In this document: positions 17,756 through 37,170 of the stretch, one piece after another | How the letters are laid out: every line of letters starts with the position of its first letter | Position numbering within the stretch: position 1 is the stretch's first letter | Assembly: GCF_002914585.1 (NCBI RefSeq) | Contig: NZ_PDDM01000006.1 | Location: forward strand, 124,001 to 188,000 | Length of the DNA stretch: 64,000 bases | Direction of reading: 5' to 3' | DNA from: Pseudanabaena sp. BC1403 | GTDB lineage: Bacteria; Cyanobacteriota; Cyanobacteriia; Pseudanabaenales; Pseudanabaenaceae | Translations under genes and position numbers: made by a program | The notes under the pieces: generated by a model | What the model was told of the DNA's origin: nothing | Database searches by the model: none | What the model saw: the letters and a program-made list of their open reading frames with translations, nothing else

Positions 17756-17896
17756 ATCTGATTATTTTTTGTTTTGCAAATAAGTCCGCTCTCATTTACA
17801 AAACCCTATAGTTCTAAAGAAGTAATAATGTGCCGCGCGGAGTACGGGACATCATTACAACAAAATCATTACTTCTTGCTCCATCCCAAAATTCAA

Positions 17897-19444
17897 ATGG
17901 AAAGTATTTCTGCAAGCTTGCCTAGCACCTTTAACGTGGCAGCTCATTTTCTGGAAACCAATATTAAACCAGAATGGAATGAGCGAGTTGCGTTTTACTA
18001 TCGAAGCACAACCTATAGCTATGAACAGGTGAAAATATGGGTACAGCGTATGGCTGGCCTGCTTAGCGAGTTGGGACTAGAGCGTGAAAATCGCATCGCC
18101 ATTCTTTTACCTGATACACCAGAGTTTGTCTTTACTTTCTGGGGATCAGTTTGGCTTGGCGCTATACCAGTCCCAATTAACACTGGTTACACTTTGGAGG
18201 AGATTCAATACATTCTCCAAGACTGTCGTGCAAAAGTGCTAGTGACCAATCAGGGCTGGTGCGAAAAGCTCGCGCCAATTCAGTCTCCGCACTTGGAGCA
18301 TATTCTCCAAATAGATGGAGAAACCCCCTTACTATCGCAATTATCTCAACAGAAAGAACAGATTCATTGGGTGAAAACTCATCGAGAAGAGCCTGCCTTC
18401 TGGCTTTATACATCAGGTAGTACAGGTAAGCCAAAAGGTGTAATTCATTTGCATCAAAGCATGGTAGTCTGTGCCGAGCAATATGGCAAAGTCGCGATCG
18501 GGCTAAAGGAAGATGACGTAATTTATTCCGTTGCTAAAATTCCTTTTGCATATGGTTTAGGCAACACCTTGTATATGCCGATGTCAGTGGGTGCGGCGGC
18601 GATCCTCTCCGATGCTGCCAATGCCTTTGACATCATTACCGATATTCAATCCTATGAACCAACAGTTCTATTTGGAATTCCTGCAATCTACGCTAGCATC
18701 CTGTCTGTTCATGAAATTGCGCCTCTCAATTCCTCTTGCTTGCGTCTATGTCTATCAGCAGCAGAACAATTGCCCAAAACAATTTGGCTAAAGTGGAAAG
18801 AAACTTATGGCATGGAGATTTGCGAGGGCATTGGGACAACTGAGTTACTGCATATTTTTCTGTCCAACCGACCTAATCAATGTCAACTGGGTAGCTCTGG
18901 TTATCCAGTCGCAGGCTATGAAGTGCAGGTAGTTGATGAACTAGGAAAGCCCGTCCCAGCAGGTGAAATTGGGGATCTCCAAGTGACAGGAGATAGCCTA
19001 ATGATCGGTTATTGGAATCGTTTAGAAGCTACTCGTAAAGCTCTATATGGAATGACGATGCGGACTGGAGATAAATATGTCCAAGATGCGGATGGTTATT
19101 TTCGATTCATGGGACGCAACGATGACTTTTTTAAAGTCAATGGCATGTGGGTATCACCCTTTGAGATTGAAGATATTTTACTCAAGCATGATGCTGTACT
19201 TGATGCGGCAGTTTTGCCTACTTCTGACTGTGATGAAGCTTTGACGCAGATAATTGCTTATATTAGTCTGAAATCTGGGTTTTCACCTTCGGTGGAGCTA
19301 GAAAATAAGCTGCGTCAAATGGTAAAGGCAAACTTACCTCACTTTAAAGCACCTAAGAGTATTCATTTTCTAGAAAATTTGCCTCGGACATCCACTGGTA
19401 AAGTGCATCGCCAAGCACTTCTCAAACACAAGCTTAAGAAGTGA
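17897..19444 (+). CDS. Aryl-CoA/aryl-carrier ligase of the benzoate-CoA ligase family
   Basis: Adenylate-forming enzyme expected to activate an aromatic acid, here most likely salicylate. The frame is open from 17774, but residues before MESISASLPSTFNVAAHFLE come from a palindromic repeat, so I start at 17897, giving 515 residues, normal for the family. Motifs: [19 protein letters not shown] (P-loop), KIPFAYGLGNTLYMPMSVGA, EGIGTTELLHIFLSNRP, SSGYPVAGYE, RTGDKY, and the catalytic Lys in RTSTGKVHRQAL. The FAYGLGN and TELLHIFLSNRP segments are those of benzoate- and hydroxybenzoate-CoA ligases rather than DhbE/MbtA stand-alone A domains. It may transfer to CoA or directly to the small carrier protein. 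Confidence 0.85.
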   Translation: MESISASLPSTFNVAAHFLETNIKPEWNERVAFYYRSTTYSYEQVKIWVQRMAGLLSELGLERENRIAILLPDTPEFVFTFWGSVWLGAIPVPINTGYTLEEIQYILQDCRAKVLVTNQGWCEKLAPIQSPHLEHILQIDGETPLLSQLSQQKEQIHWVKTHREEPAFWLYTSGSTGKPKGVIHLHQSMVVCAEQYGKVAIGLKEDDVIYSVAKIPFAYGLGNTLYMPMSVGAAAILSDAANAFDIITDIQSYEPTVLFGIPAIYASILSVHEIAPLNSSCLRLCLSAAEQLPKTIWLKWKETYGMEICEGIGTTELLHIFLSNRPNQCQLGSSGYPVAGYEVQVVDELGKPVPAGEIGDLQVTGDSLMIGYWNRLEATRKALYGMTMRTGDKYVQDADGYFRFMGRNDDFFKVNGMWVSPFEIEDILLKHDAVLDAAVLPTSDCDEALTQIIAYISLKSGFSPSVELENKLRQMVKANLPHFKAPKSIHFLENLPRTSTGKVHRQALLKHKLKK

Positions 19445-19525: not shown

Positions 19526-20845
19526 ATGTCTTCTACTGCTACTCAGTCTCTTGTTTATCATGAATTATTTGTTCCCACTCCAAAAGATCCACAATCGTTA
19601 TTGCAGAATCTATTGGATGTTGGTCTTTTTTCTAGTTATATGCTTTACCAAAGCGATCGCGATACACGCATTGCTGGAAATGCCTTGGCTAGCGTTTCGG
19701 TTAATACTGAAACTGTGACATGCAACTACATGGGACAAACGCAATCTTTCCCCGTCACTGATCCACTCAAACAAGTAGAAACTGCTTTAGCATCTTTGCC
19801 AATCGAAAACTGGACAGCATACGGATACACCAGTTTTGATATTTCGCGTTTCTACTCTCCCTACACCAAAGCAATTCAGCAATCGCTACTGCATTTTTTC
19901 ATTCCTGAAACTGAACTTCATATCACCGAGAAAGGCATCCGTATCAGAAGCATCAAGCCAATGACAAAAATTATTGAGGCTCTGTCCATTGATTGTCCAC
20001 TTCGCAGCTACACAGCCACACCTCCAGTTGTTGATTTTGCTGATCGCGAAGAATATCAAACTCAGGTGCGTAATTTAATCCAAGCAATTCAAGCTGGTAA
20101 GCTGCATAAAGCGATCATCGCGCGTTCAGTCAAGATCAAAGGAGAGATTGATTTATTGGGAACCTATTGCCTCGGTTCTCAAAGTAATAATTCAGCGCGA
20201 TCGTATTGTTTGCACATTGATAATGTAAGCGCTGTTGGATTCAGCCCTGAGATCTTGATGACAGTGGATGCCGATCGCCATGTGATCACCAATCCTTTAG
20301 CAGGTACAAGACCTCGCTCCCAAAATCTAGATGAAGATCAGCAATTAAATGATGAGTTGTTTACCGATGCCAAAGAAGTAAAAGAACATGCGCTATCGGT
20401 CTGGCTTGCCCAAGATGAGATTGCCGAAGTTTGTATTCCAGAAACAGTGCGCGTATTTGATTTTATGCAGGTGAAGAAATATCGTTGTGTGCAGCATCTG
20501 TCATCTCGCGTTGGCGGTGAACTGAAGCCTAACAAAACCCTCTGGGATGCGTTAAAGGTTCTTTTTCCTGGTATTACAGTCTCTGGCATTGATAAACAAA
20601 GTGCCTTGGCATGGATTGATCGATTGGAAACAGAGCCAAGAGGTTTGTATGCAGGTGGGATTGGTTGGGTTGATAGCAATGGAACCGCAGATTTAGCGAT
20701 CGCAATTCGTTCGGTCTATCAATACGATGATTGCATCTATTTCAATGCTGGCGCTGGCATTGTGGGTGAGTCTGTCCCAGAAACTGAGTATTTAGAATCT
20801 GTCAATAAAATGAATACGATGCTAACAAATCTAGTTTTAAAATAA
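19526..20845 (+). CDS. Salicylate synthase (MbtI/Irp9/YbtS-like)
   Basis: Chorismate-utilising MST enzyme converting chorismate via isochorismate to salicylate, 439 residues. Seen: KAIIARSVKI near residue 195, GFSPEILM, NPLAGTRPRSQNLDED near 260, KEVKEHALSVWLAQDEI, FDFMQVKKYRCVQHLSS, TVSGIDKQSAL, EPRGLYAGGIGW and AGAGIVGESVPETEY. The arrangement and the SVW/VQHL wording fit salicylate synthases better than anthranilate or isochorismate synthases, and no separate isochorismate-pyruvate lyase is needed or present. It supplies the starter for the adjacent ligase. It ends at a bidirectional hairpin shared with the exporter gene. Confidence 0.9.
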   Translation: MSSTATQSLVYHELFVPTPKDPQSLLQNLLDVGLFSSYMLYQSDRDTRIAGNALASVSVNTETVTCNYMGQTQSFPVTDPLKQVETALASLPIENWTAYGYTSFDISRFYSPYTKAIQQSLLHFFIPETELHITEKGIRIRSIKPMTKIIEALSIDCPLRSYTATPPVVDFADREEYQTQVRNLIQAIQAGKLHKAIIARSVKIKGEIDLLGTYCLGSQSNNSARSYCLHIDNVSAVGFSPEILMTVDADRHVITNPLAGTRPRSQNLDEDQQLNDELFTDAKEVKEHALSVWLAQDEIAEVCIPETVRVFDFMQVKKYRCVQHLSSRVGGELKPNKTLWDALKVLFPGITVSGIDKQSALAWIDRLETEPRGLYAGGIGWVDSNGTADLAIAIRSVYQYDDCIYFNAGAGIVGESVPETEYLESVNKMNTMLTNLVLK

Positions 20846-22231: not shown

Positions 22232-22362
22232 ATAATTAAAATTAATTTATTCTCCAAAATCTCTGCAAGCTTAGGTTGCAACCAGTAAACAACTATGATA
22301 CTGTCAATTTACACTCTTGAGAATATTAATCAAGAAGGCTATCAACTTTTGAAAAATTTGTG

Positions 22363-23913
22363 ATGATTATGCAGTCGGCAGGTATTCTTTCACTGGCGGT
22401 CAGATTCCCTCAGACCATTCGATCTAATCAATATTGGCTACAAAACTTTCCTGAATTATTTGTTCATGCGACTCCAAGGCAAAGAGAAAGACAGACAAGA
22501 ATACCTAAACCTGTTGAGTTAGATCCCACTACTAACGGAATTGATCTCTGGTTACAGGAAGCTATGCCTTATCTAGCAGATCCATTCAGAGGTAGCGTTG
22601 ATCGCCGTGTGGTGAGTGATGATGAGACTTCTTTACTACTAGAATTTCATGCAGCAGAGGAAGCGATCGCTGCCGCGAAGTTATCTGCTAATCAAATTGA
22701 TTTAGCGATCGTTACTTCACTCTTCCCAGATACTGTAGGTACTGGACTAGCGGCTCATCTTGCTCAAAAATTAGGGCTAAATTGTCCAGCTTGGAATTTG
22801 GAATCTACCTGTGCAAGTGCCTTAATTGCTCTACATACAGCCCAAGCATTTCTGCAATCGGGAATCTATCAACATATCTTGATTGTAGTTTCCCATATTG
22901 GCTCTCAGGCGGTGAATGAAGCAGATACTCTCTCATGGTCAATGGGAGATGGGGCTGGAGCCTTTATTGTTGGCAAAGCTAAACCTAATCAAGGGATTCT
23001 CAGCACCAAAATTATGCCGACAACCGCAACCTGTGGTGCATATGTCCATGAGTTGGTGATTAATGATCAAGGCAAGCCCCGCATCCAAACAAGTACAGGG
23101 GAGAATGTCAGTAGCCTTGCAACAACAGCAGTAGATCAGGTGTGTCAATGTTGTCTAGAAGCAGTGAAAGAAGCAGGTGTCCGCCTCGATCGCATTGATT
23201 ATTTTGCTTTTAATACCCCAACAGCTTGGTATGCCAGTGTTTGCGCTCAAGCCCTTGGAATTGACCCAGAGCGAATCATTAATCTCTACCCGATATATGC
23301 AAATATTGGCCCCGTTTTTCCCATTGCTAATCTCTATCATGCGGCAGCAAATGGCAAAATTCGGGAAAATGATCTGGTGTTGGTATATGCCAATGGAGCT
23401 TCGGCAACGGCGGCAGCAATGGTAATTCGATGGGGCGATACGGCTTTAGGCTCATCTGCTCCTGATAACTTCGTTCTGACTCAGAGCAAAACCCCAATCC
23501 CTGTAGAGATCAAGATTCCCTCAAAAAACAATGGACAAGCGATCGCTTTATCAGAAATTAAATCAGATATTCAAGAAAAACTATTTACTGCAAATCTAGG
23601 CGATCGTCATGCCATCTTGGTCACTTACTTATTGGAATGGTTAGCAAATCTTCAACAACTTACAGTTGTTGATCTCAGTTCTGACGAATACCTCGCAACG
23701 ATGCTGGACTCTTTAATGGCAATTATATTTCGTCGCCAAATTGAAATGGATTTACAAATTTGCGTTCCTATGGAGCAATTCTTTGGTGACATTACGATTC
23801 ATCATCTCGCTGATTTTTTACTCAACCAACTGGCTATTGCCAAAGTTATTCATACAGAAGAGATCTCTGTAGCTTCCACAAATCAGATAGCGAGAGAAGT
23901 TATCAGCCTGTAA
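22363..23913 (+). CDS. KASIII-like acyltransferase fused to a C-terminal carrier domain
   Basis: Thiolase-fold protein of about 516 residues. With numbering from the GTG at 22360, the nucleophile sits in ESTCASALIALH (Cys about 151). The position that carries His in FabH and HMG-CoA synthase-like relatives reads FNTPTAWYA, with Asn (about 285), while the following Asn region is YANIGPVFPIAN. After residue about 375 a linker leads to a carrier-like domain with LDSLMAI (Ser about 451) and a helical end. Loss of His argues against decarboxylative condensation and for an acyl-transfer role, as proposed for CerJ/DpsC-type relatives. It directly precedes an NRPS with a TubC docking domain. ATG at 22363 or 22369 is preferred over the GTG. 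Confidence 0.78.
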   Translation: MIMQSAGILSLAVRFPQTIRSNQYWLQNFPELFVHATPRQRERQTRIPKPVELDPTTNGIDLWLQEAMPYLADPFRGSVDRRVVSDDETSLLLEFHAAEEAIAAAKLSANQIDLAIVTSLFPDTVGTGLAAHLAQKLGLNCPAWNLESTCASALIALHTAQAFLQSGIYQHILIVVSHIGSQAVNEADTLSWSMGDGAGAFIVGKAKPNQGILSTKIMPTTATCGAYVHELVINDQGKPRIQTSTGENVSSLATTAVDQVCQCCLEAVKEAGVRLDRIDYFAFNTPTAWYASVCAQALGIDPERIINLYPIYANIGPVFPIANLYHAAANGKIRENDLVLVYANGASATAAAMVIRWGDTALGSSAPDNFVLTQSKTPIPVEIKIPSKNNGQAIALSEIKSDIQEKLFTANLGDRHAILVTYLLEWLANLQQLTVVDLSSDEYLATMLDSLMAIIFRRQIEMDLQICVPMEQFFGDITIHHLADFLLNQLAIAKVIHTEEISVASTNQIAREVISL

Positions 23914-23951: not shown

Positions 23952-23977
23952 ATGAATATACATTATGAATATACATT
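23952..23977 (+). repeat. 13-bp tandem duplication creating two start codons
   Basis: ATGAATATACATT occurs twice in tandem. The two ATGs are in different frames; only the second (23965) opens the NRPS frame. Confidence 0.9.
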
Positions 23978-26900
23978 CACTTTTAAACTCGCTCTCTAAA
24001 GTCGGCATAAAATTATCGACTGATGGAGATGCTCTACTAGTCGATGCGCCACAAGGAACATTAACAACCGAATTGCGCAACCACCTGATTCAGAGCAAAG
24101 CCGAAATTTTGACATTGCTGCATCAACATAGTGTGAGTCCTCCTGAAAATGATTTACCTGCGATCGCACCTGATCCAGAGTCACGCTTCGATGCATTTCC
24201 TCTGACCGATATGCAGCACGCTTTTTGGATTGGGCGCAGTGGTATATTAGCTTTGGGTAATGTTTCTAATCATGGTTATTATGAAATCGAGGGACAGACG
24301 CTAGATCTAGAAAGACTCAATAGAACTCTGCAACAATTAATTGAACGCCATGATATGTTGCGAGCGATTGTCTTACCCGATGGACAACAACGCATTCTCA
24401 AGGAAGTTCCCCCTTATCAGATCAAAGCTGTGGATTTGCGTGGGAAAGATCAGACGGAGATCGCTTCTCAATTGGATGCAATTCGTGATGAGATGTCCCA
24501 TCAAGTTCTTCCAGCAGATAAATACCCCTTGTTTGACTTTCGCGTGACCTGTTTAGATGGCGATCGCACTCGTCTCCACGTTAGTTACGACTTACTTGTA
24601 TTTGATGCATGGAGCCTATTTCGACTGTTTGAAGAATGGTTCCAACTCTATAAGTCATCCGATACGATTTTGACACCCTTAGAACTTTCATTTCGGGATT
24701 ATGTAATCGCTGAGCAATCTCTACCGAATACAAAACTTTATCAGCGATCGCAGGAATATTGGTTGAATCGGATTGACAAATTGCCCCCCGCCCCAGACCT
24801 ACCCCTTGCCAAAAAGCCTCAAGAGCTACAACAGCACCGATGTCGCCGTTATCACTCCCAAATGGAAACAGGCGATTGGCAAAGGCTAAAGCAGAAGGCG
24901 AAAAATATTGGTCTGACTCCTTCAGGGCTATTACTAGCTGCTTTTGCGGAAATCTTAACGCTGTGGAGTCACAATCCTCAATTTACCCTTAATCTTGCTC
25001 TATTTAATCGCTTGCCCATGCATTCCCAAGTTAATCATCTCTTGGGGGATTTCACCTCTGTAACTTTGCTAGCGGTTGACAATTCCACTAGTGAACCTTT
25101 TAAAGATCGCGCCCTCCGACTGCAAAAGCAACTTTGGCAAGATCTTGAACATCGCTATTTCAGTGGCGTGCGTGTGACTAGAGAAATCACCCGTCGTAAA
25201 GGCGGGGTTCCCAATGCTATGCCTGTCATTTTTACCAGCACCCTTGGATTTGCCGCAATGGGACAGGAAACCTTGACCTTCAGTCATTTTGGTGAGTTAG
25301 TATATGGGATTAGTCAGGCTTCGCAAGCATGGATGGATGTACAGGTTTGGGAAGAGAAAGAGATATTATCTTTCAATTGGGATGTCGTTGAAGAACTTTT
25401 CCCTGAAGGAATGATTGCGGATATGTTTGCTGCTTACTGCGATTTTCTTAAACATCTCGCCGATGCTGAAGAAAATTGGATTCAAACTGATCGCCAAATA
25501 ATTCCTCCTGCTCAATTAGCTCAGCGGACGGCAGTTAATGATACCGATGCACTGATCTCTAATGCATTACTGCATGAGATGTTTGCTGAACAAGTATCTC
25601 AACGTCCTGAACATCTTGCGGTGATCACCTCTCAACAATCGTTGACTTATCAAGAATTAAGCGATCGCGCTAATCAAGTTGGGCATCGCTTACGCTATCT
25701 CAATGTAAAGCCAAATCAGTTAATTGGTATTGTCATGGATAAAGGATGGGAACAGATTGTGGCAGTAATGGGCATTTTGGCATCTGGGTCTGCCTATGTG
25801 CCGATCTCGCCCGATCTACCTCCAGAACGCCTGCAATACATTCTCAAAAATAGCGACATCAAGATTGTGTTAACTCAATCTTGGCTAGATCAACAATTAC
25901 TTTGGGATGAAAGCATCTGTCGAATTTGTGTTGACGCAGACGACTTAGCGATAGAACTGAAAGAATCACTTAAACCTGTACAAATTCCCGATGATTTAGC
26001 CTATGTAATCTATACCTCTGGTTCCACTGGTTTACCCAAAGGAGTAATGATTACACATCGCAATGTTGCCAATGTGGTGGTTTATACCAATCAACGGTTT
26101 CAGGTTGGACCTAGCGATCGCATTCTTGCTCTAACTGCTCTTAATCATGATCTATCGGTTTATGACATTTTTGGCATACTCAGCGCAGGCGGTGCGATCA
26201 TCATGCCTGACGCGAAGCAAGTCAAAGATCCTAGCCATTGGGTCGAATTAATCCAAAGAGAAAAGATCACATTATGGAACTCAGTTCCCGCGATGATGGA
26301 AATGTTGGTAAATGAGGTAAGCGATCGCCCTGAACCATTCTCTACAAATTTACGCTTAGCCATTCTCGGAGGAGATTGGCTGCCCATTTCGCTCCCCAGC
26401 CGCCTTAGAGATATAGCGCCAAATATCAAGATCTTGAGTATCGGTGGTCCCACGGAAACTACGATCTGGAATATTGGCTATCAAGTGGAAGTAATTGATC
26501 CCAATTGGAAGAGTATTCCCTATGGTCAACCAATGGCAAATTCTAAATATTACATTTTAAATGAAGCTTTAGAGGATTGTCCTACGTGGGTTGCGGGTCA
26601 GATGTATTGTGCGGGAGTACAGGTTGCTAAAGGGTATTGGCGCGATGAAGCCAAAACTAACGCTAACTTTATCACCCATCCTCGCACAGGTGAACGACTC
26701 TATCGCACAGGCGATCGCGGTCGTTATTTACCAGATGGCACGATTGAATTTTTAGGACGTGTAGACTTTCAAATTAAACTGCGTGGTTATCGCATCGAAG
26801 CTGGTGAAATTGAAGCATCTTTAATGCAGCATCCCAAGGTGCAAACTGCGATCGTTAAAATTGTTGGTGAGCATCAGCAAGCGCATCTAGCCGCTTACAT

Positions 26901-27456
26901 CGTGCCACAACTTCTTTCTCCCAATGAGGAGTTGCCAACTATCGAAGATCTCAGTCAATTTCTCAGTCAAAAACTCCCCAGTTATATGATTCCTTCGGTA
27001 TTTCTGTTTCTGGAAGCCTTACCACTGTCAGCAAACGGAAAGGTTGATCGCCAAGCCTTACCTACTCAAGACGCTGCATTTCAAACAAGATCAGTGGTAT
27101 ATACCGCTCCTCAAAACGAAATTGAACAAGCGATCGTAGAAATCTTTAAGGCAGTATTAGAACTAGAAAAAGTAGGAGTTAACGATAATTTCTTTGACCT
27201 TGGCGCGAACTCTCTACTGATCACAAATATTTATCGCAAGCTTGGGATGGTTTTACCTGAAGAGAGCAAGCTGATTTCTCTTGTGGACTTATTTAGTTAC
27301 CCCACGGTGAGAAGTCTGACCCAACGCTTGACACAAGCCCAAAATGCGAATGCTCTAGATCAGCAACAGACAGAATCTGCACAGAAACTCAGTGAAGGAA
27401 AGATTCGGCTCAAGCAAAGGCTAAAACAATCGAGATTGTCTCATGGACTAGCTTAG
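23965..27456 (+). CDS. NRPS: TubC docking - heterocyclisation (Cy) - adenylation (Cys-like) - PCP
   Basis: 1163-residue module that adds and cyclises an amino acid. Order: TubC-type N-terminal docking domain (1-55), Cy domain (about 75-495) with FPLTDMQHAFWIGR and the Cy signature DLLVFDAWS (DxxxxDxxS instead of HHxxxDG), A domain (about 520-1000) with YTSGSTGLPKG near 685, GGPTETTIWN, YRTGDRGRY and the catalytic Lys in SANGKVDRQAL, then a PCP with DLGANSLL (Ser about 1083). My manual reading of the ten specificity positions is D-L-Y-N-I-G-I-I-W-K, closest to published cysteine codes of the D-L-Y-N-L-S-L-I-W-K type. A Cy domain plus Cys gives a thiazoline; with salicylate as donor the product would be hydroxyphenyl-thiazoline. 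No methyltransferase or epimerase domain is embedded. Confidence 0.9.
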   Translation: MNIHSLLNSLSKVGIKLSTDGDALLVDAPQGTLTTELRNHLIQSKAEILTLLHQHSVSPPENDLPAIAPDPESRFDAFPLTDMQHAFWIGRSGILALGNVSNHGYYEIEGQTLDLERLNRTLQQLIERHDMLRAIVLPDGQQRILKEVPPYQIKAVDLRGKDQTEIASQLDAIRDEMSHQVLPADKYPLFDFRVTCLDGDRTRLHVSYDLLVFDAWSLFRLFEEWFQLYKSSDTILTPLELSFRDYVIAEQSLPNTKLYQRSQEYWLNRIDKLPPAPDLPLAKKPQELQQHRCRRYHSQMETGDWQRLKQKAKNIGLTPSGLLLAAFAEILTLWSHNPQFTLNLALFNRLPMHSQVNHLLGDFTSVTLLAVDNSTSEPFKDRALRLQKQLWQDLEHRYFSGVRVTREITRRKGGVPNAMPVIFTSTLGFAAMGQETLTFSHFGELVYGISQASQAWMDVQVWEEKEILSFNWDVVEELFPEGMIADMFAAYCDFLKHLADAEENWIQTDRQIIPPAQLAQRTAVNDTDALISNALLHEMFAEQVSQRPEHLAVITSQQSLTYQELSDRANQVGHRLRYLNVKPNQLIGIVMDKGWEQIVAVMGILASGSAYVPISPDLPPERLQYILKNSDIKIVLTQSWLDQQLLWDESICRICVDADDLAIELKESLKPVQIPDDLAYVIYTSGSTGLPKGVMITHRNVANVVVYTNQRFQVGPSDRILALTALNHDLSVYDIFGILSAGGAIIMPDAKQVKDPSHWVELIQREKITLWNSVPAMMEMLVNEVSDRPEPFSTNLRLAILGGDWLPISLPSRLRDIAPNIKILSIGGPTETTIWNIGYQVEVIDPNWKSIPYGQPMANSKYYILNEALEDCPTWVAGQMYCAGVQVAKGYWRDEAKTNANFITHPRTGERLYRTGDRGRYLPDGTIEFLGRVDFQIKLRGYRIEAGEIEASLMQHPKVQTAIVKIVGEHQQAHLAAYIVPQLLSPNEELPTIEDLSQFLSQKLPSYMIPSVFLFLEALPLSANGKVDRQALPTQDAAFQTRSVVYTAPQNEIEQAIVEIFKAVLELEKVGVNDNFFDLGANSLLITNIYRKLGMVLPEESKLISLVDLFSYPTVRSLTQRLTQAQNANALDQQQTESAQKLSEGKIRLKQRLKQSRLSHGLA

Positions 27457-27808: not shown

Positions 27809-30800
27809 ATGAATTCTGATCAAAACGGCTTGGAAATTGCAGTAATTGGACTTGCAGGAAAGTTTGCAGGTAGCAAGACAATTGATGATTTTTGGAAAAA
27901 TCTGGAAACTGGAAGAGAGGTAATCTCTCCCTTTGATCAAAATCAACTACTCGACAAAGATCATGCATCATCACCAAAGGCGATCGCTAGAGTTGGTTCG
28001 ATATTGCAAGACGTGGATAAATTTGATGCTGCCTTTTTCGGGTTCAATCCCAGAGAAGCAGAAGCAATGGATCCGCAACATCGCCTATTTTTAGAATCTG
28101 CTTGGGAAGCCCTTGAAGATGCGGGTTGTCGCTCAGAAACCGAAACTAGACCCATAGGCGTATTTGCTGGCGTGGGAATGGGAACCTATTTGCTCTACAA
28201 CCTTAGCCCTAATTTGGGATTGATCGAGTCGAGAGGTTTTTTGCAGACATTAGTAGGTGTGGATAAAGATTATCTACCAACTCGTGTTTCCTACAAATTG
28301 AATCTCAAAGGGCCCAGCATGAGTGTGGGTACTGCTTGCTCAAGCTCAATGGTCGCAGTGCATTTAGCCTGTCAAAGTTTGTTGAGTGGCGAATGTGATA
28401 TCGCATTAGCAGCAGGAGTCTCGGTCAAAGTCCCACAAAGTGAATTAACTCTATCTCCCGATGAAATTGTTTCTCCCGATGGGCATTGCCGCGCCTTTGA
28501 TGGCAAGGCAAATGGCACTATTGGAGGCAATGGCATCGGTGTGGTGGTATTAAAGCGATTGGAGGATGCGATCGCTGATCGCGATCAAATCTATGCTGTA
28601 GTAAAAGGTTCTGCTATTAACAATGATGGAGCGATGAAGGTTGGCTACACTGCACCCAGTCAGGAGGGTCAAGCTAAAGTCATTCGCGCCGCCCAAATGA
28701 TGGCAGAAGTGGAGCCTGAAACAATTACCTATATGGAAGCTCATGGCACAGGTACGGCTCTGGGCGATCCGATTGAGGTGGCGGCGATGACACAAGCTTT
28801 TCGGGCTAATACTGATCGCTATCAGTTCTGTGCGATCGGCTCCGTGAAAACCAATGTAGGACATTTAGATGCGGCAGCTGGTATCACTGGCTTCATCAAA
28901 ACAGTACTAATGCTACATCACCAGAAAATTGTGCCTAGCCTCAATTTTGAAGCACCTAATCCCCAAATTGACTTTGCCCATAGCCCATTTTTTGTGAATA
29001 CTAAACTCACTGAGTGGAAAACTAATGGGCATCCTCGTCGAGCGGGAGTGAGTTCCTTTGGCTTTGGCGGCACAAATGTTCATGCGGTTTTAGAAGAAGC
29101 GCCTCAGCCTATTCCAGTTTCAAGTATTCCACTTTCAAGTATCCCAAAAAGAGCATATCAAATCCTCCCCATTTCCACAAAAACAGCTACGGCTTTGGAG
29201 CAAGCCACTGTGAATTTAGGCAATCACCTCCAGCAAAAAAAAGACCTCAAATTAGGAGATGTGGCTTATACGCTAGGGATGGGACGTTGGGCTTTACCGC
29301 ATCGTCGCATTGTGATTGCCCAAACTTCTACAGAGGCAGTGACAACCTTAAAGTCTGACAATGCCCAAAGTCTATTTACAGGACATACCGAAGCGAACAA
29401 TCCACCTGTCATTTTTATGTTCTCTGGTCAGGGTTCCCAATATGTGAATATGGCGCGAGGACTATATACCAGTGAATCCACCTTTCGAGAAGAATGCGAT
29501 CGCTGCTTAACGATTCTCCTCGAACAACATAATCTTGATCTGCGCTCTATTCTATTTAACGATTTTACCAAGGACGTAAATCAACCGTCGGCTTCCGAGC
29601 AACTAATGCAGACAGAGATCGCCCAACCTGCCTTATTTACGATTGAGTATGCCCTTGCGAAACTTTGGATATCTTGGGGTGTAAAGCCCCAATCCATGAT
29701 TGGACATAGTATTGGGGAATATGCCGCCGCCTGTCTAGCAGGAGTATTTTCGCTTGCAGATGCATTATCTTTAGTGGCGGTACGGGGGCAATTGATGCAG
29801 AAACAGAAAACTGGAGCGATGCTGTCAGTTAATTTGTCTGCTCAAGATGTCCAACCCTTTCTGAGCGAACATCTCTTCCTAGCAGTTAGTAATAGCCCAT
29901 CTCTGAGCGTTGTTTCAGGGACAATGGAAGCAGTTCTAGCACTACAATCACAATTATCTACTCAGGGCATTATTTCCCGTCTTTTGCATACCTCCCATGC
30001 TTTTCATTCCCCAATGATGGAAGAGGCGATCGCCCCATTTGTGGAGCATTTGCGTGGGATAACTTTGAGCCCTCCTCAAATTCCATTTATTTCCAATGTC
30101 ACAGGTACTTGGATTACCGCTAGTTCTGCCACCGACCCTCTCTACTGGGCGGAGCATCTACGTCAGCCCGTAAAGTTTTCGCAGGGAATCGCTGAGCTAT
30201 TAACCAACTCCGAAGCGATTTTCTTGGAAGTAGGAGCAGGACGGACGCTCAGCACTTTTACAAAACAACAAGCAAGCGATCGCATTATCCTCTGTTCCTT
30301 ACCCCATCATCAAGAGAAATTATCGGATGCAGCAGATTCGGAATTTTTGCTCAAAACATTAGGACAGCTTTGGATCAACGGCGTAGAAATTGATTGGAAA
30401 AGTTTTTACGATCAGCAACCATGTCAAATTGTTTCTCTTCCCACCTATCCCTTTGAACGTCAGCGCTATTGGATCGATCCACCCTCAGAAAATCATGAAA
30501 CAAATTTAAGCGATCGCCATATCGCTCAACCCTCCAAAAAGTCCGACATTGGCGAATGGTTTTATAGTCCCTCTTGGAATCGCGCCATTTTACCAACAAG
30601 GCAGAGCAACGAACAGAAACGTTGTTGGGTAATATTTAGCGATCGCGCAGGTGTAGCCTCTGCCATGACTCAACGCTTAAAACAGCAAGGACATCGAGTA
30701 ATTCAAGTGCTTGTCGGTACGGAGTTTCGCCAAAATGATCGTGATCTGTACACCATAAATCCTAGCGATCGCAACCACTATGAGAATTTAATCCGCGAGA

Positions 30801-32485
30801 TTTTCTCTTTTGAGCAATCACCGATCATTGCTCATCTCTGGACTTTAACCGCCAATCTCGAATTTACAGAATCCCAAACTCTGGGATTCTATAGTTTGCT
30901 CTATTTAGCCCAAGCGATCGGGCAACAGAATCAGGAGCATTCGCTCCACATTGGCGTTGTTTCTAGCAATATTCAAGATGTCATAGGGACAGAAGTCATT
31001 CTGCCTGAAAAGGCAACTATCTTAGGGGCTTGTCAAGTGATGCCACAGGAATACGCCAATCTCACTTGTAACATGATCGATGTCGTCGTACCCGCATCCG
31101 AAGTCATTGAACAGCAACCCTTAGTTGAGCAAATCATCACCGAGATTTTGTCTCAAGCTGGCGAAGTCTCTGATCCGATTGTTGCCTATCGTGGTAATTA
31201 TCGTTGGTTACCGACCCACGTTCCCCTTTACTTAAAGCCAGTCACATCACCAGCGCCATACCGCCATCAAGGAGTTTACTTGATTACAGGTGGAATGGGA
31301 GGGCTTGGGATGACTATTGCCGAACATCTTGCTCACAATTTCCAATCCAACCTCGTCCTGATCAGTCGCACTCCTCTACCATTACAAAATGAATGGGAAG
31401 AATGGCTAGATAATCACCCTGAGCAGGATGCGACCAGTATCAAGATTCGCAAAATCCAATCTTTGGAAACGAGTGGAGCCAAAGTCCTAGTTCTTAAAGC
31501 TGATGTTTCTGATTCGGAGCAGATGCAAGCGGTACGCGAGCGCATTCAACAAACCTTCGGTGAACTGCATGGCATCTTCCATACGGCAGGAGTTGCAGGT
31601 GATGGCATCATCCAGCTCAAAACACCTGAGAATGCAGCAAAGGTTATGCGCCCAAAAGTTCAAGGGACTATCGTACTCCAACAGATTTTCCAAACAATGA
31701 ACCTTGATTTCTTGGTACTGTTTTCTTCACTCAGTGCGCTTCTAGGCGGCTTAGGACAAGTAGATTATAGCGCCGCAAACTGTTTCCTAGATGCTTTTGC
31801 AAGATCTCAATCTGCAATGAACCATCGTACTATCTCGATTAATTGGGATATTTGGCAGGAGGTAGGGATGGGAGCAAATATAACAGGACTGCCAGATCGC
31901 CTCAAGCAAGAACGCTTAGAAGCACTAGAAATGGGGATTTCTCCCCAAGAAGGCTTGGATGGATTACAGCGAATCCTCCAAAATGCTGGTCATCAAATCA
32001 TGATTTCCACTCAGGATTGGCAATTGGTACAGAAGCAAAAACAAAGAACCATTACTGCCCCGATTAACCTTGAGCCAGCAAATCATCCCACCAAGACAAC
32101 ACAATCACCAGACACAGGACATCAGCGATCGCTACAATCCACCACTTATCTGGCTCCTAGCAATGCGATCGAACAACGAATAGCCGAACTTTGGCAAGCG
32201 CAACTGGGGATAGCACAAGTGGGAATCCATGATAACTTCTTTGAATTAGGCGGACATTCCCTATTAGCGGTGCGCTTAGTATCACAGATCCGTGAAATGT
32301 ATCCTGTTGAATTGTCGTTGCGAACTTTGCTATCGGAAGCGCCAACGGTATCAGGATTAGCCAATGTCATTGCTGAGCAAATATCTGAGCCTGACAACTC
32401 AGATGAAATGGCACAGATTTTGGCGGAGATTGAGAAATTGTCACGAGATGAAGTAACAGCAGAATTAGCTCAAGCTAAGGATTAA
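27809..32485 (+). CDS. Type I modular PKS: KS-AT-KR-ACP
   Basis: 1558-residue single module. KS (about 8-430): GTACSSSMVAVHLAC with Cys about 175, EAHGTGTALGDP and NVGHLDAAAG. AT (about 530-840): GQGSQ, GHSIGEYAAACLAG with Ser about 634, and HAFHSPMM, the malonyl-CoA type signature. KR (about 1150-1370): TGGMGGLGM cofactor loop, catalytic Ser in LFSSLSALLGG and YSAAN; AGDG at the LDD position keeps the third Asp, suggesting a B-type alcohol, tentatively. ACP (about 1455-1525): ELGGHSLLAVRL with Ser about 1483. No DH, ER or methyltransferase is seen, so it should add a beta-hydroxy acetate unit to the thiazoline. It follows the NRPS after a repeat and is 14 bases before the monooxygenase gene. 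Confidence 0.92.
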   Translation: MNSDQNGLEIAVIGLAGKFAGSKTIDDFWKNLETGREVISPFDQNQLLDKDHASSPKAIARVGSILQDVDKFDAAFFGFNPREAEAMDPQHRLFLESAWEALEDAGCRSETETRPIGVFAGVGMGTYLLYNLSPNLGLIESRGFLQTLVGVDKDYLPTRVSYKLNLKGPSMSVGTACSSSMVAVHLACQSLLSGECDIALAAGVSVKVPQSELTLSPDEIVSPDGHCRAFDGKANGTIGGNGIGVVVLKRLEDAIADRDQIYAVVKGSAINNDGAMKVGYTAPSQEGQAKVIRAAQMMAEVEPETITYMEAHGTGTALGDPIEVAAMTQAFRANTDRYQFCAIGSVKTNVGHLDAAAGITGFIKTVLMLHHQKIVPSLNFEAPNPQIDFAHSPFFVNTKLTEWKTNGHPRRAGVSSFGFGGTNVHAVLEEAPQPIPVSSIPLSSIPKRAYQILPISTKTATALEQATVNLGNHLQQKKDLKLGDVAYTLGMGRWALPHRRIVIAQTSTEAVTTLKSDNAQSLFTGHTEANNPPVIFMFSGQGSQYVNMARGLYTSESTFREECDRCLTILLEQHNLDLRSILFNDFTKDVNQPSASEQLMQTEIAQPALFTIEYALAKLWISWGVKPQSMIGHSIGEYAAACLAGVFSLADALSLVAVRGQLMQKQKTGAMLSVNLSAQDVQPFLSEHLFLAVSNSPSLSVVSGTMEAVLALQSQLSTQGIISRLLHTSHAFHSPMMEEAIAPFVEHLRGITLSPPQIPFISNVTGTWITASSATDPLYWAEHLRQPVKFSQGIAELLTNSEAIFLEVGAGRTLSTFTKQQASDRIILCSLPHHQEKLSDAADSEFLLKTLGQLWINGVEIDWKSFYDQQPCQIVSLPTYPFERQRYWIDPPSENHETNLSDRHIAQPSKKSDIGEWFYSPSWNRAILPTRQSNEQKRCWVIFSDRAGVASAMTQRLKQQGHRVIQVLVGTEFRQNDRDLYTINPSDRNHYENLIREIFSFEQSPIIAHLWTLTANLEFTESQTLGFYSLLYLAQAIGQQNQEHSLHIGVVSSNIQDVIGTEVILPEKATILGACQVMPQEYANLTCNMIDVVVPASEVIEQQPLVEQIITEILSQAGEVSDPIVAYRGNYRWLPTHVPLYLKPVTSPAPYRHQGVYLITGGMGGLGMTIAEHLAHNFQSNLVLISRTPLPLQNEWEEWLDNHPEQDATSIKIRKIQSLETSGAKVLVLKADVSDSEQMQAVRERIQQTFGELHGIFHTAGVAGDGIIQLKTPENAAKVMRPKVQGTIVLQQIFQTMNLDFLVLFSSLSALLGGLGQVDYSAANCFLDAFARSQSAMNHRTISINWDIWQEVGMGANITGLPDRLKQERLEALEMGISPQEGLDGLQRILQNAGHQIMISTQDWQLVQKQKQRTITAPINLEPANHPTKTTQSPDTGHQRSLQSTTYLAPSNAIEQRIAELWQAQLGIAQVGIHDNFFELGGHSLLAVRLVSQIREMYPVELSLRTLLSEAPTVSGLANVIAEQISEPDNSDEMAQILAEIEKLSRDEVTAELAQAKD

Positions 32486-32499
32486 GCAGGATTAACATT

Positions 32500-33564
32500 A
32501 TGGAATTCAGTCTATTTTATTTTTCTGGTGATGGTTCCACCACTAGTCACGACAAATATCGTCTGTTAATTGAAGGTGCAAAGTTTGCCGATCGCCATAA
32601 ATTTGCGGCGGTTTGGGTTCCCGAACGTCATTTTGATGCCTTTGGTGGACTATATCCCAACCCCTCCGTGGCAGGTGCTGCGATCGCCATGATTACCGAG
32701 CATATCCAAATTCGTTCTGGCAGCGTCGTGATGCCCTTGCAAAATCCTCTGCGCGTAGCAGAAGAATGGGCGATGGTCGATAATCTTTCTCAAGGTCGAG
32801 TTGGTCTGTCTTTCGCCCCTGGTTGGCATCCTAACGATTTTGTGCTTTTCCCCGAAAAGTATGCCGACAAGAAGGAAATTATGTGGAGCGATATCCAAGT
32901 TGTAAAGCAACTTTGGCAAGGAGAAGCGATCGCCCTCACGGGGGGCAATGGTAAACCTGTGAATATTTCCACATTTCCTCGACCGCTACAGTCACGTTTA
33001 CCCATTTGGATTACTGCTCTTTCTGACGAAACGTTTATTGATGCAGGAAAAATTGGTGCGAATATCCTCACTTCGCCTCTATATCAAAGCTTAGATGAAA
33101 TCCTCCGCAAAATCACTCTCTATCGTCAATCACTCACCCAACATGGTCACGATCCCAAAAGTGGCAAGGTGGCGATGATGATCCATACATTTATTGATAA
33201 CGACCTAGATGCTGTCCGCAGGAAAGTACGACAACCATTCAAAAACTACCTGAAAACGCATTTTGATCTGGTGGTCAAATCTGCGGGGGATTTACGGTTT
33301 TCCATCGACCCTAAGACCATGACGGCTCAAGATTTGGATGACTTACTTGATTTCAGTTTCGAGACTTATTTCAACGGCAAAGTCTTAATGGGAACTCCCG
33401 CTCATTGCCAAACCATGATTGATAGTCTGCAACAAGCAGGAGTTGATGAAGTTGCTGCTCTCATTGACTTTGGCGTTGAATTCGACTGGGTAATGGAAAG
33501 CTTAGATTTTCTCAAAGATCTAAAAAATAGTTGTGCATCACGTCAACCAGTCAAAGTTTGTTAG
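32500..33564 (+). CDS. Luciferase-like flavin-dependent monooxygenase (MupA/Atu3666-type LLM)
   Basis: 354-residue TIM-barrel oxidoreductase using reduced FMN. The opening MEFSLFYFSGDG, the VWVPERHFDAFGGLYPNPSV stretch and GRVGLSFAPGWHPNDFVLFP are characteristic of the LLM subfamily found as free proteins or domains in NRPS/PKS lines (MupA-like). It is 14 bases after the PKS stop and so probably translated from the same mRNA. Likely role: hydroxylation or oxidative tailoring of a carrier-bound intermediate; the exact position is unknown. Confidence 0.88.
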   Translation: MEFSLFYFSGDGSTTSHDKYRLLIEGAKFADRHKFAAVWVPERHFDAFGGLYPNPSVAGAAIAMITEHIQIRSGSVVMPLQNPLRVAEEWAMVDNLSQGRVGLSFAPGWHPNDFVLFPEKYADKKEIMWSDIQVVKQLWQGEAIALTGGNGKPVNISTFPRPLQSRLPIWITALSDETFIDAGKIGANILTSPLYQSLDEILRKITLYRQSLTQHGHDPKSGKVAMMIHTFIDNDLDAVRRKVRQPFKNYLKTHFDLVVKSAGDLRFSIDPKTMTAQDLDDLLDFSFETYFNGKVLMGTPAHCQTMIDSLQQAGVDEVAALIDFGVEFDWVMESLDFLKDLKNSCASRQPVKVC

Positions 33565-33569
33565 CCCTA

Positions 33570-33711: not shown

Positions 33712-33714
33712 AAA

Positions 33715-33749
33715 AGATAATACACTGCGCAAAGTGCGGTGTATTATCT
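33715..33749. terminator. Hairpin after repeat element B
   Basis: 16-nt arms with two mismatches around AAA; tip CTGCGCAAAGTGCGG. It lies between the monooxygenase and membrane-protein genes, possibly an attenuator. Confidence 0.6.
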
Positions 33750-33788: not shown

Positions 33789-34535
33789 ATGAACATTAAC
33801 TGGAGTATTTTGGTCGCCGCAATCGGTGGTGCATCAATTGATTTTTTAGAGATTGCGGTAATTGCTTATGCGATCGCCAGATCGGGCTATCAGCGAGAAG
33901 CTGTTTGGGGCAGCATCTTAGGAGTACTACTAGTTGCAGCAATTGCTTTTCCTTTTAGCGAGATCTTGGGATTAATTCCGCTCCATTGGCTAGAAATTCT
34001 GGTCGGGATAACTCTGATTTGGGTTGGTTGGCGCTGGGTGAGCAAATCGATCAAACGTCAGGCGCAGGGAAAACGCGCTGGTTGGATGTCCGATGATCCG
34101 CTAGCCGCTGAAGAGATTGTGCTAGACAAGCAAAATTCAGGCTTTAGCAATCTGAATTTTTGGGTGATGACCAAAAGTGCAATCCTCGAAGCTTTGGAGA
34201 TTGCGATCCTCGTGGTCACCTTAGGATTAGCTTCAGGAGCATGGTATGAGTCTTTAGCTGGAACTGCGATCGCCCTCATATTTGCGGTAGTCATTGTCGC
34301 TGCCTTGCATAACTATTTGCTCAATGTTCCAGAAGTATTGATTAAGTTAGGATCTGGGATCTTACTAGGTGCATTAGGAACGTTTTGGTTAGGAGAGGGA
34401 CTGGGAGTTACATGGATGTTTGCAGATTTCGCGATCGTGGCAATTGTCGCAGCTTACAGTGGTTTAGCCATGCTGTTCCTGTGGTGGTCAAAGCGTCAAC
34501 ATATGGAAGTTACCATCGCCAATCAAGTGGAATAG
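33789..34535 (+). CDS. Polytopic membrane protein with internal duplication (COG4280-like)
   Basis: 248 residues with about seven hydrophobic segments in two similar halves. Each half carries an acidic motif inside a helix: DFLEIAVIAYA near residue 18 and EALEIAILVV near residue 138, joined by a polar loop with GWMSDDPLAAEE. The repeat-with-acidic-motif layout recalls UPF0016/GDT1-like and COG4280 membrane proteins; I recognise it only at that level. It lies inside the biosynthetic run, between the monooxygenase and the last condensation gene, so transport of the product or of a cation is possible. No enzyme motif is visible. Confidence 0.65.
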   Translation: MNINWSILVAAIGGASIDFLEIAVIAYAIARSGYQREAVWGSILGVLLVAAIAFPFSEILGLIPLHWLEILVGITLIWVGWRWVSKSIKRQAQGKRAGWMSDDPLAAEEIVLDKQNSGFSNLNFWVMTKSAILEALEIAILVVTLGLASGAWYESLAGTAIALIFAVVIVAALHNYLLNVPEVLIKLGSGILLGALGTFWLGEGLGVTWMFADFAIVAIVAAYSGLAMLFLWWSKRQHMEVTIANQVE

Positions 34536-34597
34536 GTTTCTGACAGACAGATTCCACAATTAAAACCAATTAAACAGAATTGATAGAGAGTTAAAAG

Positions 34598-36946
34598 ATG
34601 AATGATTTATCCAAACGCATTGCGGCTTTGTCTCCAGAGCAACAGGCTTTATTAAAGCGGCGCATCAGCCAAAAGCAAGTCCAACAACCTAAGTCTTGGA
34701 CAATTCCCAAAAGAGATCTATCTAAACAGAATCATCTTGTCGTCTCCTTTGAACAACAAGGAATGTGGTTTCAACATCAATTAGGAACCACCAGTGCAGT
34801 CTCCAATAATGTTTCTATATCTCTGAAAATCACAGGGAATCTCAATGTAGATGCTCTGGAGCAAAGTATCCGAGAAATCATTCAGCGCCACGAAATTCTC
34901 CGCACAAACTACCAAACGACTACGGGAGAATTAACTCAAATTATTATCCCACCCAGAAACTGGACGCTAAGGATGATTGATCTACAAATGTACCAGATTC
35001 CCGAACGAGAAAGGGAAATCAATCGCATTGCATCCTTTCAAGCTTGTCAGCCGTTTGATCTAGCAATAGATTCATTATTGTTGCGAACAACATTAGTCCA
35101 AAGTGATGTTTGCGAATTCGTACTGATCTTAACTATCCATCACATTGCTATGGATGCTTGGTCTCTGGGCATCTTTTTTGGAGAATTGAATGTTCTGTAT
35201 GCGGCATTTTCCTCAGGTAAACCTTCTCCTCTGGAGCCTTTACCAATTCAATATGCTGATTTTGCAGTTTGGCAGCAACAGCACTTACAGGGCAAAGCAC
35301 TAGAGAATGATCTCGATTACTGGAAGCGACAATTAGCTAATTCTCCCGATTTATTATCCCTCACAAGCGATCGCCCCCGTCCTTCTATCCAATCTTTTAG
35401 GGGTAAAACCTTATCTTTTTTAATACCAAAAACGCTCGCTGAATCCCTCAAATCTCTATCCGAGCAGAATGAAGCTACTTTATTCATGATTTTATTAGCA
35501 GCTTTACAAACACTCCTATTTCGTTATACAGGACAAAATGACATTGTAGTAGGTTCGCCGATCGCTAACCGTCATCAATCAGAAATCGAAAACCTAATCG
35601 GTTGTTTTATTAATACATTAGTTCTCCGAACTGACTTATCAGGAAATCCCAGTTTCCGAAATTTACTAAAGCGAGTACGCGAAACAGTCCTAGGAGCCTT
35701 AGCTCACCAAAGCCTGCCCTTTGAAAAGTTAATAGTTGAATTTGAGCTAGGGCAGAGTTTAACCTATGCGCCATTATTTCAGGTGATGTTAATTCTCCAA
35801 AATGCTTTTTCGACAAAGAGTATTGAGTTGTCAGGACTCAAAGTTGAATATGAACGCATTAACAATCAGACATCTGATTTAGATCTAACCATGCACTTGG
35901 TGGAAGGAGATACGGGATTAATCGGGAAATTGGAATACAACACAGATTTGTTTGATGAGTCTCGAATGAATCGAATGTTAGCGCATTTTCAGACCTTGCT
36001 AGCAGCTATTGTCGAAAATCCTGATTGCACTATTTCGGCACTTCCAATCCTAACATTGACAGAACAAGAACAGTTAGCAACATGGAATCAAACAAGCTCC
36101 ATCGATTTGGCAAAGCTAATAATTCCAGAATTAGCTGGACGCGAATTGCCTATTGATAAATCAGTCCGTAAGTTTAGTACCTATATTCTCGATCCATGCT
36201 TACAACCTACTCCTATTGGTATTCCTGGAGAGCTTTATATTGGCGGTCTCGATGCCGCTATCTATAAAACTGGCGATCGCACGCTCTACTCATCAGACGG
36301 AACGATTCAGTTTTTGGGACGAATTGAGCATCAAATAAAAATACACAGATTCTATATTCAACTAGAAGATATTGAAGCTATACTGATGCAACATCCTCAA
36401 ATACAGGAAACTATTGTCATTGAGCAGATTGATCGTGCAGAGCTTGTAGATGATCAACAACTAATTGCCTATATTGTACCGATCTTGGGCTATACGCTCA
36501 ACTCTCGCAACCTCCGCCGTTTTCTAGAAAAAAGGTTGCCGAAGTATATGATTCCTACCGAGTTCATCCTATTGAAATCATTCCCTATTGATGAGAATGG
36601 AAGAGTGAATCGTCATAGTTTACCGCTAGCAGAGTCAATTAGCATTGACTTAGCCATAGATTTCATCGCACCACGCACCGCCACAGAGAGAGAAATTGCC
36701 CAGATTTTTATGAAGGTCTTGGAAATTAATCAGGTGGGTATCGATGACGACTTCTTTGAGTTAGGAGGACATTTTTTATTGGGAAACAAATTGGTAAATC
36801 GATTACTTCTAGTCTTTCAAGTTAAGATCACCATCGTCGATTTATTTCAGTCACCCACAATTGCTGGTTTAGCAGAGCGTATTGAGCAACTCCAAAACTT
36901 GACTGCTTCTGAGAGTTTTGAACTTACGCAAAATGACAGAATATAG
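34598..36946 (+). CDS. NRPS condensation protein with degenerate adenylation and carrier domains (C-A*-PCP*)
   Basis: 782 residues. The C domain (about 45-465) looks intact: HHIAMDAWSLGIFF near 181-194 keeps the catalytic second His and Asp. Directly after the C-A linker (LATWNQTSS, about 495) the adenylation domain jumps to its last third: GELYIGG, YKTGDR, FLGRIEHQIKI. Motifs A1-A5 are absent, about 330 residues of a normal A domain, without a frame break. The A10 Lys is Arg (ENGRVNR). The carrier motif reads ELGGHFLLGNKL, with Phe (codon 36773-36775) where Ser should be, so it cannot hold a phosphopantetheine arm. Only the C domain can be active, perhaps as a terminal releasing or amide-forming domain. 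A non-functional relic is the alternative. Confidence 0.88.
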   Translation: MNDLSKRIAALSPEQQALLKRRISQKQVQQPKSWTIPKRDLSKQNHLVVSFEQQGMWFQHQLGTTSAVSNNVSISLKITGNLNVDALEQSIREIIQRHEILRTNYQTTTGELTQIIIPPRNWTLRMIDLQMYQIPEREREINRIASFQACQPFDLAIDSLLLRTTLVQSDVCEFVLILTIHHIAMDAWSLGIFFGELNVLYAAFSSGKPSPLEPLPIQYADFAVWQQQHLQGKALENDLDYWKRQLANSPDLLSLTSDRPRPSIQSFRGKTLSFLIPKTLAESLKSLSEQNEATLFMILLAALQTLLFRYTGQNDIVVGSPIANRHQSEIENLIGCFINTLVLRTDLSGNPSFRNLLKRVRETVLGALAHQSLPFEKLIVEFELGQSLTYAPLFQVMLILQNAFSTKSIELSGLKVEYERINNQTSDLDLTMHLVEGDTGLIGKLEYNTDLFDESRMNRMLAHFQTLLAAIVENPDCTISALPILTLTEQEQLATWNQTSSIDLAKLIIPELAGRELPIDKSVRKFSTYILDPCLQPTPIGIPGELYIGGLDAAIYKTGDRTLYSSDGTIQFLGRIEHQIKIHRFYIQLEDIEAILMQHPQIQETIVIEQIDRAELVDDQQLIAYIVPILGYTLNSRNLRRFLEKRLPKYMIPTEFILLKSFPIDENGRVNRHSLPLAESISIDLAIDFIAPRTATEREIAQIFMKVLEINQVGIDDDFFELGGHFLLGNKLVNRLLLVFQVKITIVDLFQSPTIAGLAERIEQLQNLTASESFELTQNDRI

Positions 36947-37117: not shown

Positions 37118-37170
37118 AAAGCCCAAAAGAGAAAGGCGGCGCGAAGCGCCGCCTTTCTCTTTTGGGCTTT
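37118..37170. terminator. 25-bp perfect hairpin with GCGC-GAA-GCGC tip
   Basis: Arms 37118-37142 and 37146-37170 are fully complementary around GAA. It is 171 bases after the last cluster gene and TTTT follows within the tail. It is the likely transcription end of the cluster and for the opposing cupin gene. Confidence 0.85.

Follow-up and report, generated by a model that had tools for sequence, protein, structure and literature searches.

In the glidonin line of Schlegelella brevitalea, module 13 of the nonribosomal peptide synthetase (NRPS) has the order C13-A*-T13-TE, in which the adenylation (A) domain is reduced to its C-terminal subdomain (Asub), the condensation (C) domain C13, with the acceptor-pocket residues S9963, D9965 and E9984, uses free putrescine as its acceptor substrate, and A*T13 confer stability on the protein (PMC10587159). 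In the fuscachelin line, R2577 of the C3 domain narrows the acceptor channel, and the engineered R2577G exchange admits an unloaded phosphopantetheine arm (PMC8097023). Here we analyse an end-module protein with a comparable layout, encoded in a 64,000-nucleotide stretch of Pseudanabaena sp. BC1403 (NZ_PDDM01000006.1, positions 124,001 to 188,000; hereafter the window, whose first letter is position 1), in which an intact C domain is followed by a reduced A domain (A*) and a serine-less carrier (T*). This end-module is probably kept for product release and is probably not a broken gene. For the more specific proposal, that a former elongation module with C, A and peptidyl carrier (PCP) domains was turned into a release module whose C domain would pass a chain bound to an acyl carrier protein (ACP) to a free nucleophile, we consider the chances about even. 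A literature search for this protein gave no paper on it among the matches listed, judged by titles and the openings of abstracts. The features of the protein are as follows.

34598..36946, + strand: C-A*-T* end-module protein, 782 aa (open frame; Pfam)
34598..34723, + strand: N-terminal segment, residues 1-42, presumed docking region that would face the upstream polyketide synthase (PKS)
34724..36076, + strand: condensation domain, residues 43-493 (PF00668, E 2.8e-108)
34760..34762, + strand: Gly55 codon in the C1 motif, acceptor-channel gate, Arg-to-Gly (aligned with fuscachelin C3 R2577)
35138..35164, + strand: HHIAMDAWS active-site motif, residues 181-189 (sequence)
36094..36095, + strand: junction of the large in-frame deletion of A1-A5 (alignment with full-length relatives)
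36095..36256, + strand: left-over piece of the A core, predicted disordered (alignment; pLDDT)
36257..36667, + strand: A C-terminal subdomain (Asub) plus lead-in, residues 554-690 (PF13193; sequence)
36668..36892, + strand: carrier domain without its serine, residues 691-765 (PF00550)

Like glidonin module 13, the protein stands at the end of its line and consists of a C domain, an Asub-only A domain and a carrier; the joining of a chain to a free nucleophile by the C domain has been shown there and is proposed here (PMC10587159). The differences are that T13 is required in vivo, its Ser10255 having been mutated as the active site, whereas the carrier here has Phe; that two putative TE domains follow in glidonin and no TE is found in the present protein; and that the donor there is a peptide, whereas here it would be the ACP of a PKS, among cyanobacterial genes. 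Because the carrier serine is missing, we do not class the protein as a glidonin-type module, only as one that would work like it. With the fuscachelin C3 R2577G variant (PDB 7KVW, 7KW2) it shares the same gate Gly in C1, natural here and engineered there in an internal elongating domain with working carriers (PMC8097023). Fatuamide is likewise a cyanobacterial salicylate/Cys-thiazoline metallophore line with a KAS III protein, a Cy-A-PCP module and a KS-AT-KR module feeding the last NRPS; FatP-FatQ read KS-AT-KR-PCP and then C-A(Gly)-P-C, and the C-A-P-C layout of FatQ, with its A domain, carrier and terminal C domain, is that of two relatives described below (G386 and G393), whereas the window protein is without the A core, the carrier serine and a terminal C domain (PMC11877528). 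Lusichelin, a salicyl-capped cyanobacterial PKS/NRPS metallophore line with Cys heterocyclisation, differs in having four NRPS modules with Cys-type A domains, and the available part of its report mentions no truncated end-module (PMC12210259).

Pfam recognized Condensation at residues 43-493, AMP-binding_C at 592-668 and PP-binding at 699-762, with no match to the AMP-binding core within the 782-aa protein, and the N-terminal pattern N-[DN]-[LF]..RI-[AT]-ALSPEQ was present in 7/7 aligned proteins. The coordinates, the 782-codon open frame and the motifs HHIAMDAWS, ENGRVNR and GGHFLL, all given by an earlier sequence-only reading of this DNA, were recovered as claimed. Alignment with four full-length relatives placed a large deletion of ~310-330 aa, its size varying with the relative compared, and a second in-frame deletion of ~25 aa in the A6-A7 spacer at ~36250, the motif names A1-A10 being those we take to apply on this alignment. 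In addition, the codon at 36773-36775 encodes Phe, so that GGHFLL replaces GGHSLL in the carrier, and the A10 Lys is changed to Arg at 36602-36604 (ENGRVNR).

The truncated form occurs in three genomes, namely the window strain, Pseudanabaena sp. SR411 (G394; NZ_NDHW01000164.1) and G398 (hereafter the trio), with protein identities to the window copy of 95% for SR411 and 91% for G398 and with frames of 778-782 codons, all open. Both deletions lie at identical places in SR411 and G398, and both proteins carry GGHFLL. At the carrier-serine column of an 80-row alignment, of which 45 rows stop short of that column, Phe is confined to the trio and Ser is found in 32/32 others with a residue there. 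The recurrence of the deletions and of the Ser-to-Phe change in three separately assembled genomes excludes an assembly collapse at 36.1 kb, the joint being the same in SR411 and G398; likewise, the recurrence of Phe in the whole trio rules out chance or sequencing error. A full C-A-PCP at the same place in four relatives (G386, G393, G338 and G199) indicates that the truncation is derived, and the common deletions and common clade rule out a separate origin in three species. Most simply, judging from the aligned sequences, the deletions and the Ser-to-Phe change would be one inherited event, and differences among the trio would then have arisen after the loss. The A10 Arg is common to the window and SR411, and G398 reads DGKVNR, retaining Lys, which rules out this change as a founding loss. 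The three independent losses proposed earlier are thus not borne out, the losses having been inherited together in a laterally moved gene, with the A10 Arg absent from G398. As for the lost A domain, its counterpart in G386 presumably carries a DAEDIGSIVK-like code, read by eye; we claim no substrate, and a literature search for code strings of this kind gave no paper.

Within the genus, 13/26 genomes had some match to the end-module protein and 5/26 were counted as orthologous on identity (64-100%, the remainder <50%) and synteny. The gene for the cluster's luciferase-like monooxygenase (LLM; E up to 1e-90) was found in those same five genomes, of 38 in the order. Two of the five, G386 and G393, encode a C-A-PCP-C protein at the end-module position. 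Outside the genus, eight cluster regions were inspected from a search of 386 genomes of the phylum that scored at most two places per genome, such that more truncated copies are possible; in two of them (G338 and G199) the LLM gene is followed by a full C-A-PCP and then by a TubC-docked NAD_binding_4 reductase, and the remaining six were read over 19.9 kb and may stop before the cluster end. Among the 12 loci obtained by scanning named genomes, SR411 was the sole truncated relative. No reductase of the G338 type was found hidden in the window by tblastn (E up to 1), the sole match of that protein being its TubC-like docking region against the window's Cy-A-PCP protein. The G338 cluster (L066/L067) is a rearranged relative: its Cy-A-PCP counterpart has 816 aa, of which the best alignment spans residues 1-519 only, and the cluster includes additional PKS-like and A-PCP-like proteins. 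For another strain of the genus, Pseudanabaena BL-A-41, antiSMASH reported an NRPS-like cluster on the chromosome and, in the part of the report available, no siderophore pathway (PMC12472891).

The truncated gene diverged under purifying selection in its C domain, Asub and carrier fold. Ratios of nonsynonymous to synonymous rates (omega; Nei-Gojobori, 1000 bootstraps) for the pairs of the trio, three partly mosaic sequences, were 0.216-0.228 over residues 1-765, with 95% confidence intervals <0.35. For the C domain they were 0.216 (window-SR411), 0.162 (window-G398) and 0.153 (SR411-G398), for the A remnant (residues 494-690) 0.289-0.363, for A* and T* together 0.274-0.310 and for the carrier 0.176-0.288. 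Omega of 1 was reached in 0/1000 bootstraps for residues 1-765, the C domain, the A remnant and A*+T*, in fractions of 0.013, 0.009 and 0 for the carrier, and in 0.066, 0.013 and 0.239 for the short stretch 494-545. The trio has no stop codon, against means of 9-16 under simulated neutral drift (divergence 0.1-0.2). The gene thereby lacks the marks of a pseudogene: there are no stops or frameshifts in three frames, and omega of 0.216-0.228 is not near 1. The earlier suggestion to look for the same deletion and Ser-to-Phe change together with low C-domain dN/dS in relatives was answered positively in two related species, and neither relaxed selection everywhere nor an assembly collapse was found, with a constraint weaker than in intact relatives.

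An AlphaFold2 model built on 80 alignment rows (mean predicted local distance difference test, pLDDT, 83.5) gave pLDDT >90 for the bulk of the C domain; in Asub the blocks of residues 591-670 were mostly at 86-93, with one dip to 57, and in a helical carrier the blocks were at 84-97, with one of 69 around the Phe. Residues 501-557 were mostly <50 and residues 561-590 low (56-67). Foldseek searches against the PDB returned ordinary NRPS C-A and PCP-C structures as top matches. In the predicted model A* and T* are largely folded domains and not junk, and their folding together with their conservation argues against pure decay of A and PCP. The view that only the C domain was retained accordingly stands for the intact C domain and the lost A1-A5, and fails for an Asub predicted with confidence and a helical carrier; in the same way, decay of A and PCP with the C domain kept agrees with the constraint on the C domain, but A* and T* are conserved too (omega ~0.18-0.36) and largely folded.

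The C domain retains both His (181, 182) and Asp186 of HHIAMDAWS across the trio, and 61/64 columns conserved at >=85% in 65 other C domains are retained in the window copy. At the acceptor-channel gate, window VSFEQQGMW aligns with fuscachelin wild-type LSHFQRRLW and the R2577G chain LSHFQRGLW (PDB chains). The residue is Gly in the trio and Arg in 4/4 full-length orthologues and in 53/65 other C domains; hence, opening of the gate goes with loss of the aminoacyl carrier. The LCL-type gate Arg is missing in the trio, which is not an absolute criterion for LCL domains; the published shares are 73% with Arg among LCL domains and 80% with Gly among DCL domains (PMC8097023). In the C-domain tree, which was built quickly and has long branches close to the outgroup, the sister group of the trio is formed by the first C domains of G386 and G393, and those of G338 and G199 come next; all of these precede a complete A-PCP. 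The C domains at the ends of the G386 and G393 proteins form a separate clade. On this tree we reject identity with the terminal type of G386/G393, to which FatQ belongs by layout. The phylogenetic placement against LCL and releasing C domains proposed earlier was thus achieved in part, the domain falling beside the first C domains of the same cluster family in a tree made without LCL or releasing references. A new Asp at residue 427 was dropped as an acceptor-pocket residue, since the fuscachelin mapping places it outside the pocket.

Without a loaded acceptor of its own, the C domain could end the chain only through a free nucleophile, water or an outside carrier. We propose that it would receive the acyl chain carried by the ACP of the preceding PKS and join it to a free small nucleophile, most likely an amine and possibly an alcohol, which would enter through the un-gated acceptor channel (Gly55), so that no TE domain would be needed to end synthesis; a stabilising effect like that published for glidonin module 13 would explain why Asub and the dead carrier have stayed. 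The idea, already raised in the sequence-only reading, that the chain is released onto a free amine or hydroxyl is plausible and better supported than before through the glidonin precedent and the gate change.

The end-module is the last component of a salicylate/thiazoline-type PKS-NRPS metallophore line. The cluster opens with a TonB receptor, a stand-alone thioesterase, a benzoate-CoA-ligase-family enzyme, a salicylate synthase and an MFS protein, and continues with a KAS III-carrier fusion, Cy-A-PCP, KS-AT-KR-ACP, the LLM, an inserted membrane-protein gene and the end-module:

13063..15636, + strand: TonB-dependent receptor (Pfam)
16137..16910, - strand: stand-alone (type II) thioesterase (PF00975, E 8e-53)
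17774..19444, + strand: benzoate-CoA-ligase-family enzyme, presumed salicylate-AMP ligase (TIGR02262 over cut-off)
19526..20845, + strand: salicylate synthase (TIGR03494 over cut-off)
22360..23913, + strand: KAS III-like protein with a C-terminal carrier domain (Pfam)
23965..27456, + strand: TubC-docked C/Cy-A-PCP module (Pfam; sequence), which we take to be Cy with a Cys-like code from motifs read by eye
27809..32485, + strand: PKS module KS-AT-KR-ACP (Pfam; sequence)
32500..33564, + strand: MupA/Atu3671-family luciferase-like monooxygenase (TIGR04020, E 3e-146, over cut-off)
33789..34535: inserted membrane-protein gene with a weak OFeT_1 match (Pfam)

No carrier beyond the PKS ACP (GGHSLL) retains its serine in this assembly line. 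The thioesterase is kept in SR411, G398, L071 and L072; beside it, at 15677-16120, lies a gene for a 147-aa protein that is ~80% conserved in SR411 and G398 and gave no Pfam or NCBIfam match at E 0.001. FecCD and periplasmic-binding genes (Pfam) lie further upstream of the cluster, and no further NRPS/PKS gene is present among the next downstream genes in the window, SR411 and G398. Some 170 bp 3' of the end-module, at 37118-37170, a perfect 25-nt inverted repeat with a 3-nt loop is followed by a short T run, as in a strong terminator or a repeat element.

The end-module gene has a history distinct from that of its neighbours, as delimited by one feature:

34583..36915, + strand: laterally exchanged island (blastn boundaries; dS contrasts)

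The island, whose edges lie 15 bp 5' of the ATG and ~30 bp short of the frame end, has DNA identities of 96% to SR411 and 93% to G398, against 82% for the adjoining LLM gene. Between the window and SR411, synonymous divergence (dS) is 0.11 for the end-module gene and 0.93-1.26 for eight cluster genes (LLM, PKS, Cy-A-PCP, KASIII, MFS, MbtI, ligase and TEII), with 0.48 for the TonB gene and 0.61 for rpoB; this contrast indicates that the truncated gene was exchanged laterally, moving as a single-gene cassette between differently evolved cluster copies. Within the island, codons 561-640 resemble G398 more closely than SR411, which suggests that exchange took place repeatedly, and the cluster itself also seems to travel between species, as dS of its genes between SR411 and G398 is 0.18-0.35 compared with 0.61 for rpoB. 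That the gene reached a differently evolved cluster and was kept there is more easily explained by use than by chance hitch-hiking. That a release module evolved naturally, by A-core deletion, serine loss and gate opening, and was then swapped singly between the clusters of species is a composite proposal to which we give somewhat less than an even chance. The membrane-protein gene at 33789-34535 is unsupported as the exchange vehicle, being present in 1/26 genus genomes, the window's own. Between it and the LLM gene, 33555-33726 holds one inverted repeat nested within another (arms of 38 nt spaced by 1 nt, inside arms of 33 nt), with similar stretches elsewhere in the SR411 and G393 loci and the look of a miniature mobile element.

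Lateral exchange bears directly on whether the protein is a recent leftover of slow decay, its function lost with A and PCP, and with the stand-alone thioesterase or spontaneous hydrolysis now freeing the chain held on the PKS ACP. Such a history would account for an omega above that of intact relatives, most in the A remnant (0.29-0.36 vs ~0.11), for the changes R386Q, P256T and those at 379-389 at conserved C-domain sites, and for a thioesterase gene in all three clusters; yet omega well below 1 for the C domain and the A remnant, less firmly for the carrier, zero stops vs 9-16 simulated and a truncated allele common to two differently evolved cluster versions through exchange make it rather unlikely. 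A catalytic C domain that releases the chain by hydrolysis, or by attack of the chain's own hydroxyl to form a lactone, with no outside amine, appears distinctly doubtful: the chain should bear a KR-derived beta-hydroxyl and the salicylate phenol, cyclising terminal C domains are known (PMC11546977) and an open gate might admit water, but in the tree the domain joins the first C domains of related proteins and not the terminal ones of G386/G393, and the predicted chain is, in our judgement, short for cyclisation.

It is quite improbable that the protein belongs to a split module that receives its aminoacyl carrier in trans from a separate A-PCP protein. Dead A domains can be complemented in trans (PMC8949500), the kutzneride case being cited in PMC10587159, and the host has three further Condensation matches, on contig C1. 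The protein's own carrier is Ser-less, so that a whole A-PCP would be needed in trans; beyond the cluster's Cy-A-PCP no A-PCP gene was seen in the clusters of the three genomes, and the gate Arg that favours aminoacyl-phosphopantetheine is gone in the trio. Slighter still is the probability of a non-catalytic scaffold, recruiting for instance the upstream-encoded LLM as X domains, which are C-like platforms, recruit P450s: the module is preceded by the LLM gene in the trio and in full-length relatives, and Foldseek lists X-domain structures far down among many C domains, but X domains have a mutated HHxxxDG (PMC8949500), and the intact His-His and Asp rule out X-domain identity here.

Several observations weigh against the release-module reading. 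P256T, V379I and R386Q are the exceptions at conserved columns and, with a series of trio-specific changes in the looser columns 379-389, could mean partial loss of function. The gate is non-Arg in 12/65 other C domains as well, Gly is typical of DCL domains, so that Gly55 is possibly open to other meanings, and it may be mere relaxation. Mutation of glidonin T13 abolished the product in vivo, unlike the natural Ser-less carrier (PMC10587159). A full module is under tighter constraint, the difference being largest for the A remnant: in intact G386-G393 omega is lower (C 0.10, Asub 0.11, PCP 0.14; by hand), the trio values are ~1.2-3x those of intact relatives, and nine other cluster genes gave 0.08-0.22 between SR411 and G398, all rates for the truncated gene resting on three partly mosaic sequences. 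Finally, the genes closest downstream in the three genomes showed none in common that would supply an acceptor.

Annotation tools are expected to call a protein of this kind an incomplete module. If release to a free nucleophile is the true function, the protein would add to the C-A*-T-type release modules a case from a different phylum that follows a PKS, and the carrier serine would be dispensable for this mode of chain ending. It would also be a natural instance of an engineered gate mutation, with sibling enzymes differing at the gate that make the hypothesis testable. A release module could then spread as a portable single gene, which would bear on product prediction and NRPS engineering, and the release-module swap practised by engineers would already have been carried out by nature.

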